Shown here: in pieces, positions 11,768 to 13,081 of the stretch
Numbering within the stretch: position 1 is the stretch's first letter
Layout of the letters: every line of letters begins with the position of its first letter
Source: Saprospiraceae bacterium
Lineage (GTDB): Bacteria; Bacteroidota; Bacteroidia; Bacteroidales; JAIPBB01
DNA length: 13,114 bases
NCBI GenBank assembly: GCA_021739805.1
Contig: JAIPBB010000134.1
Span: 1-13,114 of the forward strand
Direction: 5' to 3'
Program-made: the position numbers and the translations under genes
Notes under the pieces: generated by a model
Database searches by the model: none
What the model saw: only the letters and a program-made list of their open reading frames with translations
What the model was told of the DNA's origin: nothing

Positions 11768-12254
11768 AAAGTTAAAAGACTGTAATCAGTAATCAAACCC
11801 CCATTTTTTTTCAAAAGCACAAAAAATATAAATTTATAGCAAAAAAAACACAATTAAGGTATAATCAAACAATTGTGGCTGTGGCTAATAAACTAGCGAG
11901 GATTACCTATACAATGGTAAAGAATCAGGTAGAATAGGTGAAAATATTGAAACAAATAAAAATAAAGTAAATTTGCAGAAAAAATAGTAAATTATGCGAA
12001 GAAACTTGAAAAGTCTAAAAAAATTCTCATTGCAATGGCTTCATAATATGATTATTGTGTTTTTTTAGATGTTGGAGATCAAATAGCCAAGGCATGGCTT
12101 AAAAGAAGATATGAAAAACACTTTATATGTAAACTTACTGACTCAGATGACTAACAGCAAGAAACTCAACATTGGATTAAATCTGTATTCGAATGTAAAT
12201 AGATAAACAGCTAACAAAGAGCATATTTCATTGATAGTTGGCAAACATATTAAG
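11768..12254. other. Intergenic region after the signalling operon
   Basis: About 490 bp of AT-rich DNA without an intact gene. It holds the transposase remnant described separately and then short frames broken by stops on both strands (for example a run ending near 12047 in one frame and another near 12070-12153). No strong rho-independent terminator is visible after the hybrid kinase. The last bases (12237-12254) belong to the cassette start described below. Confidence 0.6.
11854..11937 (+). pseudogene. Decayed IS110-family transposase C-terminal fragment
   Basis: Translation in one frame gives RYNQTIVAVANKLARITY followed by TMVKNQVE and a stop. The 'NxxxVAxANKxARIxxxMV' pattern is the conserved C-terminal region of IS110/IS116/IS902 transposases (transposase_20 type), where 'VAlANKxARiiwamL' is typical. 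The rest of the transposase (several hundred residues) is absent upstream and no start codon fits, so this is an internal scrap of a former insertion sequence. No inverted ends or target duplication were seen, in keeping with the usual lack of both in this family. Confidence 0.55.
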
Positions 12255-13079
12255 ATGACAACACGAAAATTAACATTCTTGATTCTGATTCTTGTCTCAG
12301 TGATAAGTTGTAATAAAAAAACTCAGACTGACGAGAAGGTTATAACTGAGATTTTCCCGCAGTTGATTGATAGCTTAAGGATTAGTAAATCAAATCTGAT
12401 TCCACCACCTCCTCCACCAATATTTGACAAAGACTCAAATTTTATCGGAGTTGATTCCATTGCAGCAAAAGATATTGAAGAAAAACATAAACAGATTATC
12501 AGAGAAATAGATTCAATTGATTCAAGATTACTTATTGGTTTACTTGATACTTGTCTGTCTATTGATTTTAGTGATTTAAGGCAAAGGACTTATTCAGACA
12601 GCCAGATAATTCAAAAAATAATCTTGGACAATAATCAAATTCAAAAATCATTAATAAAATGGAATTTAGAATCAATGCAAATGCCTTCTGATTTTCAATT
12701 AATGTTTAAATCTGACTTAATCGAAAAATACTCTGACATTTGGAGAATTAATGACAGAAAATTTGGTGGATTGATTGCCATTTCTAGAATTTATTATGAC
12801 AATGACAAGAAAACTGGACTTTTCCAATTTGAATCATATCCATTTTATCATGAAGGTGTGAGTTACTTTGTGATAATTATGCAGATTGATGGAAAATGGA
12901 AAATAAAGAAAATACTAATGAACTGGATTACATAAAAAAATACGTTTGCCAACAGCGGCTCATAGTGCATGCCGCGGGTAGCGCATATAAATAAAGAGAG
13001 TTGTAAGTTTGAAGATGGTGCAAATCAAGAATTATAAAAGTAAAAAAGCGGCACGCACCATAGCCGCAAACCGATATAG
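12237..13079 (+). mobile_element. Putative integron-type gene cassette
   Basis: The unit starts with GTTGGCAAAC (12237-12246), contains one lipoprotein gene, and continues with the exact inverted copy GTTTGCCAAC (12944-12953), a large hairpin, and a new GTT core at 13079-13081 that begins a different sequence (GTTAAGACGG). In integron cassettes the crossover lies between G and TT of the GTTRRRY core, so a cassette begins with the second part of its own site and ends with the first part plus the folded region. The layout here fits this point for point. Both junctions read ATAG/TT. The R' cores are close to, but not exact, GTTRRRY matches. No integrase or attI is visible. Confidence 0.5.
12255..12935 (+). 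CDS. Cassette-borne lipoprotein of unknown function
   Basis: A 226-residue protein counted from the ATG at 12255. A TTG start at 12231 would add eight residues but would cross the putative cassette boundary and place extra residues before the signal peptide, so the ATG is preferred. The signal peptide ends in the lipobox VISC (Cys19), so the product is a likely outer-membrane or periplasmic lipoprotein. A linker with six consecutive prolines follows near residues 50-55, then a charged helical region. The C-terminal part (GLIAISRIYYDNDKKTGLFQ, then a run of aromatics and KWKIKKILMNWIT) is a beta-rich pattern common in small Bacteroidota lipoproteins of unknown role. The stop codon lies 8 bp before the hairpin site. 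There is no known enzyme motif. Confidence 0.75.
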   Translation: MTTRKLTFLILILVSVISCNKKTQTDEKVITEIFPQLIDSLRISKSNLIPPPPPPIFDKDSNFIGVDSIAAKDIEEKHKQIIREIDSIDSRLLIGLLDTCLSIDFSDLRQRTYSDSQIIQKIILDNNQIQKSLIKWNLESMQMPSDFQLMFKSDLIEKYSDIWRINDRKFGGLIAISRIYYDNDKKTGLFQFESYPFYHEGVSYFVIIMQIDGKWKIKKILMNWIT

Positions 13080-13081
13080 TT
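12944..13081 (+). repeat. attC-like recombination site (hairpin element)
   Basis: R''-like core GTTTGCCAAC (12944-12953), left arm 12955-12975 (GCGGCT…GCCGC), a 72-nt variable centre, right arm 13048-13067 (GCGGC…AGCCGC), then an 11-nt spacer and GTT at 13079-13081. The arms pair along 20 positions, leaving one extra C (12961) in the left arm. The two imperfect positions are A-C on the top strand but T-G wobbles on the bottom strand, so the bottom strand folds more completely. Known attC sites show the same asymmetry and an unpaired base in the L'' arm. The spacers next to the arms are uneven (1 nt and 11 nt), unlike most attC sites. TAAGTTTG at 13004-13011 inside the loop matches a -7 promoter box. 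Confidence 0.5.

Follow-up and report, generated by a model that had tools for sequence, protein, structure and literature searches.

A putative gene cassette with a hairpin attC-like site in a Bacteroidota contig and the integron-like arrays of its relatives

Classical integrons are common in Pseudomonadota, and the additional domain (I2) of their integrase, IntI, is thought to make integron integrases work. In 'inverted' integrons the integrase gene is co-oriented with the cassette array and has its 3' end at attI. The attC sites of integrons recombine as folded bottom strands, with pairing possible over 9-11 nt, according to the passage on this point in PMC2727003. One integron survey was, by its stated selection, restricted to proteins with the IntI insertion (PMC2426708); the IntegronFinder 2.0 paper, where it turns to Bacteroidetes proper, gives one complete integron, in Salinibacter (PMC9024848); and a remark in PMC8138268 calls the IntI insertion 'not fully conserved' in an integron-like subgroup. 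Elsewhere the relevant passages mention Bacteroidota or Bacteroidetes briefly among integron carriers, or describe the IntI insertion or attC sites (PMC9024848, PMC8618304, PMC9668308, PMC2426708, PMC8138268, and likewise PMC8352920, PMC4792948, PMC8946536, PMC2727003 and PMC7790495). In the passages, titles and abstract openings consulted from the open literature other than preprints, we found no description of Bacteroidota arrays of the type reported here; a prior description elsewhere is possible. The recombinase protein family itself has already been noticed, since both the remark in PMC8138268 and the NCBI model name 'site-specific tyrosine recombinase/integron integrase' refer to such proteins.

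The stretch of DNA analysed here (the window) is an entire contig of 13,114 nt, which stops shortly after a putative cassette (Table 1). The first-pass annotation had described a perfect 10-bp inverted pair around exactly one gene, with the right copy running into a folded element, and both features stand as described. The outer arms are complementary at 10/10 positions (93% over 15 nt), and the spacer of the window-type site is asymmetric, with 1 nt on the left and about 5 nt on the right in an alignment of 11 copies (A1, below). The inner stem, given as 20 bp, has 20 paired positions, two of them A.C mismatches, and an extra bulged C at 12961. One detail needs correction: the fresh GTT core reported at the end of the element is present at 13079-13081, but it lies 6 nt beyond the homologous core position. 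In relatives the site ends with CG↓TT, at a distance from AAC that hardly varies (peak 118 nt), and there the window reads CG↓AT (13072-13075). G↓AT targets are known for integron secondary sites. At the left end, cleavage would fall between G12237 and T12238.

Table 1. Coordinates of the putative cassette and its attC-like site in the window
Feature	Position	Strand	Remarks
Cassette left end GTTGGCAAAC	12237..12246	+	Exact complement of 12944-12953; occurs once in the window
Single cassette gene	12255..12935	+	226-codon ORF, the only ORF between the arms
Left outer arm of att site GTTTGCCAAC	12944..12953	+	Complementary to the start of its own cassette
attC-like site	12951..13075	+	R2 match spanning the whole model
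Inner stem, left arm	12955..12975	+	C12961 unpaired, an extrahelical G on the bottom strand
Long terminal loop	12976..13047	+	ATGGTGCAAATCAAGAA partly conserved in the window-type subfamily (A1 alignment)
Inner stem, right arm	13048..13067	+	Pairs with 12955-12975
Cassette right end	13073..13081	+	G13073↓AT at the homologous position (not G↓TT); GTT of the first-pass annotation at 13079-13081

The cassette gene is co-oriented with the att site, and its 226-aa product is a hypothetical protein with a lipoprotein-like start (ISCNKK) that matched no Pfam family at E ≤ 0.01. Forty proteins match it, itself included, and the three sources named for them are Candidatus Delongbacteria, Geofilum rhodophaeum (Marinilabiliales, Bacteroidota) and Saccharicrinis. 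A search for the gene in 295 genomes of the order returned two weak partial matches in one genome.

Neither the inverted pair alone nor the hairpin alone is decisive. At spacings of 100-1000 nt the AT-rich window contains 55 inverted k-mer pairs of 10 bp (raw count), and 20 of 200 shuffled sequences folded at least as stably as the hairpin (z = -1.48). The feature is significant because its partner arm is rare by chance and because an independently built model matches exactly that hairpin. The partner of the GC-richer arm occurs once in the window. For the 4.4 kb upstream the expected number of occurrences is 0.004, and it was present in 12 of 3000 Markov-1 simulated sequences. The model, R2, is a covariance model whose training sites all lie behind recombinase genes of other genomes (alignment A3, below). 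With filters off it matched the att site at 43.3 bits (E 3.5e-8), its only match in the window below E 0.1; the next two reached E 0.15 and 0.29, all R2 E-values being rough owing to a shortened calibration. R1, the model of window-type sites, gave 143 bits, with the window among the 11 sequences used to build it.

To the left of the cassette, no R2 match was found within the window at E < 0.1. On the right, the first-pass annotation had predicted CCGTCTTAAC as the end of a next cassette; the contig stops at 13114, and a second cassette is not visible before that end. The unit in the window is best described as a lone cassette or an array edge, with its own recombinase out of view. With no att site recognised on the left flank, a lone cassette, 12238-13073, may have been inserted between ATTGATAG and ATATAG, which would be a G↓AT target of the secondary-site kind. 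Directly left of the cassette, the intergenic stretch 11780-12236 (no R2 match at E < 0.1) appears to hold a decayed reading frame. Farther away, 1468-1677, 2049-2143 and 2832-2972 are diverged direct repeats between minus-strand genes (87-96% over 52-95 nt), and a unit at about 2154-2759 has near-complementary ends, GTTGTACAC and GTGCACAAC (by eye), with no R2 match there; it is possibly an eroded cassette or one of a different type.

The stem pattern of the hairpin led to 13 genome contigs, five of which (L020, L023, L024, L027, L030) were discarded because they resemble chance matches in coding sequence. Nine copies from the other eight contigs, one from a viral collection (L001) and that of the window make up A1, with sources in Bacteroidales, Flavobacteriales/Flavobacteriaceae, Bacteroidetes, Chlorobiota and Candidatus Delongbacteria. 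Imperfections are seen in the copy of L026, where some of the right arm is missing, and in that of L029, where GCT stands in place of GTT. L031 carries two consecutive units with ends GTTACCACAC/GTGTGGTAAC and GTTACCTGC/GCAGGTAAC (by eye), which obey the end rule of the window with other letters. When the hairpin was compared with plasmids and phages by BLAST, the matches listed (20 of 144 and 20 of 30 records) were all short and partial, none with an E-value better than about 1. The 17-nt loop motif was present in 18 viral contigs, among which the hairpin was seen in L001 only (by eye). That contig, an IMG/VR entry filed as viral, has its window-type site at 1857-1985, between DUF262-like and restriction-methylase-like genes (ORFs read by eye).

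The integron integrase model TIGR02249 exceeded its cut-off in one of the eight genomes with window-type sites, a Chlorobiota MAG (G003, 363.6 bits). In G002, G005 and G006, proteins of 374-379 aa matched this model in two stretches, with model positions of about 180-237 missing, and scored 198-214 bits against the cut-off of 265. The best NCBIfam model for all three was NF040815, 'site-specific tyrosine recombinase/integron integrase' (224-228 bits, cut-off 220). Each of the three genes lies at most 600 nt from a contig end on its 3' side; downstream of the G002 gene we read TATATAAACAAG↓TTGTGC. With a profile of these three recombinases (A2), matches of about 220 bits and above (E ≤ 1e-65, hand count) were obtained in 93 of 296 Bacteroidota genomes; at E ≤ 1e-62 none of 249 Pseudomonadota genomes gave a match. 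The phyla were named from single contigs, Bacteroidota for that of G008 (through L031, Bacteroidales) and Pseudomonadota for that of G598 (through L027, Psychrobacter). Sixty regions from the A2 matches listed, mostly the highest-scoring, and the three first loci gave the 63 loci used below.

The spacing between the GLR and HxLRH motifs was 91-92 residues in 50 of 62 members (94-98 in four, aberrant in four, pattern unmatched in four), against 133 in 11 of 12 IntI and 96-104 in seven of eight Xer references. The Bacteroidota recombinase lacks the additional domain, or patch, of IntI (I2) and is therefore no IntI by the usual definition; the first-pass annotation had proposed looking for a tyrosine recombinase with that patch. 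By a simple pattern, all three catalytic motifs are present in 56 of the 63 proteins. Most loci encode a recombinase of about 350-400 aa including an extra N-terminal alpha/beta part, and the profile match begins inside this N-terminal extension in 48 of 63 loci; shorter members also head arrays, as in L122, L134 and L147. In a quick tree the 62 members stood apart from 12 IntI, all drawn from one close search, and from eight Bacteroidota XerC/D-like copies (L106, which has an internal stop, was left out). In an AlphaFold model of the recombinase (pLDDT 81.9, pTM 0.53), residues 7-75 form the N-terminal alpha/beta part; the PDB structure that the model matches best is that of IntI4 (2a3v), an integron integrase, with XerA next.

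A few loci deserve separate mention. In L106 (genome G181) the recombinase frame is broken by a stop codon and R2 sites remain downstream (L106:12427-12548 and L106:8335-8457). Genome G111 has several recombinase copies (L144, L148, L149), of which L148 and L149 are almost identical; its loci share kilobase repeats at 99% identity or more, and L144 and L149, not L148, pass the strict array rule given below. G003 combines window-type sites with an IntI that exceeds the family cut-off (L032); cassettes may be common to both systems, or the bin may be a mixed one.

Downstream of the recombinase genes we looked for complementary nine-mer end pairs, leaving the hairpin out of the search. Successive pairs were separated, end to start, by 115-119 nt in 68 cases and by 120-124 nt in 12. 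The corresponding counts for reversed sequence were 3 and 4, and the bins flanking the peak held 4 and 3 cases. Under a strict rule, 26 of the 51 loci with enough sequence have an array unit that begins no more than 250 nt past the recombinase stop, compared with 46 of 1020 reversed sequences and 1 of 50 upstream sides. The other 25 loci fail this rule, and an attI-like motif is still present in several of them (for example L102, L109, L110, L113, L116 and L117). Two earlier unit detectors had been set aside: a loose one gave 475 matches against 777 in reversed sequence and was uninformative, and a second (154/460 control matches) was replaced by the link-spacing test and the strict rule. R1 matched array sites in seven loci (L100, L107, L109, L114, L116, L119 and L120; E 5e-8 to 9e-4), and in each at least one match coincides with an arm-defined site (compared by hand). 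R2 also detects arrays in L019 (four sites) and L166 (eight sites).

Integron cassettes have ends that are complementary over 7-11 nt around AAC/GTT, and the cassettes here share this property. When all 80 linked sites were left out, so that neither site was arm-defined, the ends matched (at least 6/7 matches beyond the core) in 19 of 26 consecutive R2 pairs, compared with 1.0% of mismatched pairs. Some of the seven pairs without an end match are not true neighbours, because the test used only the best 150 of 182 R2 matches. Three loci outside the recombinase set gave matching ends in six of eight pairs. A looser test gave 41 of 50; because it left out A3 sites only, it included some pairs initially detected through their arms. 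The 85 matched cassettes have a median length of 1004 bp; 76 have their largest ORF co-oriented, seven have it in the opposite direction and two have none. Tandem arrangement and co-orientation thus resemble those of integron arrays, in which promoterless cassettes are read from a Pc promoter.

Arrays begin at an attI-like site, mostly 30-130 nt past the tyrosine recombinase gene, where the sequence after the stop codon reads ...TATAAACRAG↓TT... or ...CCAATTG↓TT.... A 14-letter consensus of this site, derived from the very loci scored, reached a score of at least 11 in 29 of 63 loci compared with 4 of 63 reversed, and at least 10 in 40 compared with 17. Natural traces of exchange are visible there as different first cassettes behind the same attI. 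G↓TT is the point of divergence in six pairs of related loci (L118/L119, L126/L131, L117/L126, L120/L121, L148/L149, which are two loci of one genome, and L103/L109): identity is 77-95% over the 61 nt that lead up to the G and 47-57% in the alignment of the following 80 nt, compared with a mean alignment identity of 45% (5-95% range 38-51%) for unrelated 80-nt pieces from the same loci. Two pairs were left out, L099/L101 at a contig edge and L112/L117, where the wrong GTT had been taken in L112. The block starting at GTTAGCGGTCATTG stands behind an R2 site in L117 (L117:5065-5188) and behind attI-like sequence in L126. Motif and breakpoints together place an attI-like site beside the recombinase gene, where cassettes would enter. 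L126 has a second attI-like sequence, GCATATAAGCAAG↓TTAGCGG, at about 17098-17138 (oriented coordinates), before a cassette-like block and far from the recombinase of that locus; it is perhaps a relic platform.

R2 matched 147 of 296 Bacteroidota genomes, probably an undercount with at most 11 candidates scored per genome, and one of 249 Pseudomonadota genomes. Recombinase and sites occur together in 81 of the 296 (Fisher p 2e-19, kinship ignored). Twelve of the 93 recombinase genomes had no R2 match, and 25 genomes with at least five sites had no recombinase above about 220 bits. Two other accounts of the arrays can be weighed here. The sites could be unusual attC sites of a canonical integron, served by an ordinary IntI elsewhere in the genome, as the true IntI of G003 would suggest. 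We consider this unlikely: the other seven of the eight genomes with window-type sites (incomplete MAGs) have no IntI over the cut-off, the recombinase at the attI of the arrays is the patch-less one, and a phylum rich in classical integrons yielded the single R2-positive genome just mentioned. Alternatively, the cassettes might be moved by XerC/XerD instead of a dedicated recombinase, much as IMEX elements and pdif modules exploit Xer. XerC/D are, to our knowledge, nearly universal, and the 25 genomes rich in sites would be explained. This seems distinctly unlikely, given that attI lies directly behind a dedicated recombinase, that the first-cassette breakpoint falls there and that 81 of the 93 recombinase genomes also have sites.

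The fold of the sites was examined in A3. From the 80 linked sites we removed three without an inner stem and then redundant ones, which left 48; L111:10247-10374 and L114:10771-10893, which looked coding-like, were taken out by eye. The resulting 46 non-redundant array sites share a common stem with 14 modelled pairs and compensatory changes in 14/14. Stem cells were paired in 92.2%, compared with 53.3% after shuffling and 33-41% after sliding. Over 18 pairs, with pair 9-121 excluded, top-strand A.C (G.T on the bottom strand) occurred 86 times and top-strand G.T twice. Pair 9-121 runs against this trend with 17 top-strand G.T, and pair 18-111, an A.C pair rather than a bulge in 40 of 46 sites, supplies 40 of the 86 cells. 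Counted per sequence, 43 of 46 sites lean to the bottom strand, none to the top and three are even; calculated DNA folding energies favour the bottom strand in 57 of 80 sites and the top strand in 22. Structure conserved over sequence and a folding bottom strand are features of integron sites, which further carry extrahelical bases on the left arm and an unpaired central spacer.

Selection on a folded bottom strand predicts such a bias, and a transcribed RNA does not. The hairpins might otherwise be taken for RNA elements, either terminators or regulatory RNA, that are transcribed and carried along with genes, in keeping with their position at gene 3' ends, mostly co-oriented with the ORF. That is highly improbable: outside one pair, the non-Watson-Crick pairs favour the untranscribed strand by the 86 to 2 given above, selection on RNA predicts neither complementary cassette ends nor G↓TT breakpoints, and the window has no Rfam match at gathering scores. 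That they are REP/MITE-like repeats moved by a transposase, with end complementarity by chance, is barely credible despite near-identical copies in different genomes and repeats within one (G008, 12 R1 matches), as the sequence diverges while structure and spacing stay fixed, and end arms vary between cassettes and match within a cassette.

The window unit, 12238-13073 (or 13079), is very probably a single cassette, with a hairpin attC-like site, that belongs to a gene-capture system of Bacteroidota resembling integrons, judging from sequence comparison. This reading draws on the computed anatomy, conserved fold, strand bias, end complementarity, attI position, co-occurrence and G↓TT breakpoints. 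The suggestion of an 'undescribed integron family or analogous recombination system' in the first-pass annotation is borne out by what the relatives show: single-gene cassettes arranged in tandem, the two ends of each complementary to one another, a bottom-strand hairpin conserved in structure, an attI-like site, and a recombinase encoded in cis; the hairpins unlinked to single-gene units that it had named as counter-evidence are not what the cassettes of the relatives present. The system is predicted to work like an integron, and by the IntI test of membership it is not one. When single-stranded, the bottom strand would fold into a stem that pairs both cassette ends; a tyrosine recombinase would cut at G↓TT, and the cassette would move as a circle. 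The candidate enzyme is the XerA/IntI-like protein without the I2 insertion, whose gene in full loci lies just upstream of the attI-like site at which the array begins and points in the same direction as the cassettes. We infer that the reaction is catalysed by this recombinase acting on the folded bottom strand, and that the cassette of the window is able to move.

More broadly, these arrays may well represent a second, phylum-wide integron lineage in Bacteroidota, with folded single-stranded sites and a tyrosine recombinase without the I2 helix, either as the ancestral state before I2 was gained or as an independent solution with the N-terminal part replacing I2; we lean towards this view. 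In the passages describing their selection, surveys chose proteins with the IntI insertion, because of which a system with sites in 147 of 296 Bacteroidota genomes would have been missed. A recombinase without I2 beside attC-like arrays makes a question left open in the literature directly testable, and a large pool of mobile genes, many probably of unknown function, would become accessible.

Compared with the sedentary chromosomal integrons, the arrays are alike in their tandem single-gene cassettes with mostly co-oriented ORFs, the G↓TT core, the 9-10 nt complementary cassette ends, the attI-like site beside a tyrosine recombinase, and a folded bottom-strand site with a long terminal part, which in the window subtype has a predicted extrahelical G on the left arm. 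They differ in that the recombinase lacks the IntI/I2 insertion and has an N-terminal extension (matched in 48 of 63 loci), is co-oriented with the array and has its 3' end at attI. The inner stem is nearly continuous over about 18 positions, whereas integron sites have short boxes and two or three bulges; site length is near-constant, and the attI sequence is not that of integrons. With XerA/XerC/XerD the recombinase shares its sequence family (NF040815 was best for all three proteins tested) and the absence of the I2 insertion. Unlike Xer, it groups apart from the eight XerC/D-like copies in the quick tree, has a spacing of 91-92 (50/62) rather than 96-104 (7/8) and in most cases an extra N-terminal part, and in some genomes is present in several copies with their own arrays (G111: L144, L149). 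Finally, the cassette of the window and the site-bearing genomes without a recombinase above about 220 bits resemble the integrase-less clusters that IntegronFinder terms CALIN, or its lone attC sites, with the difference that the sites here are of the Bacteroidota type.
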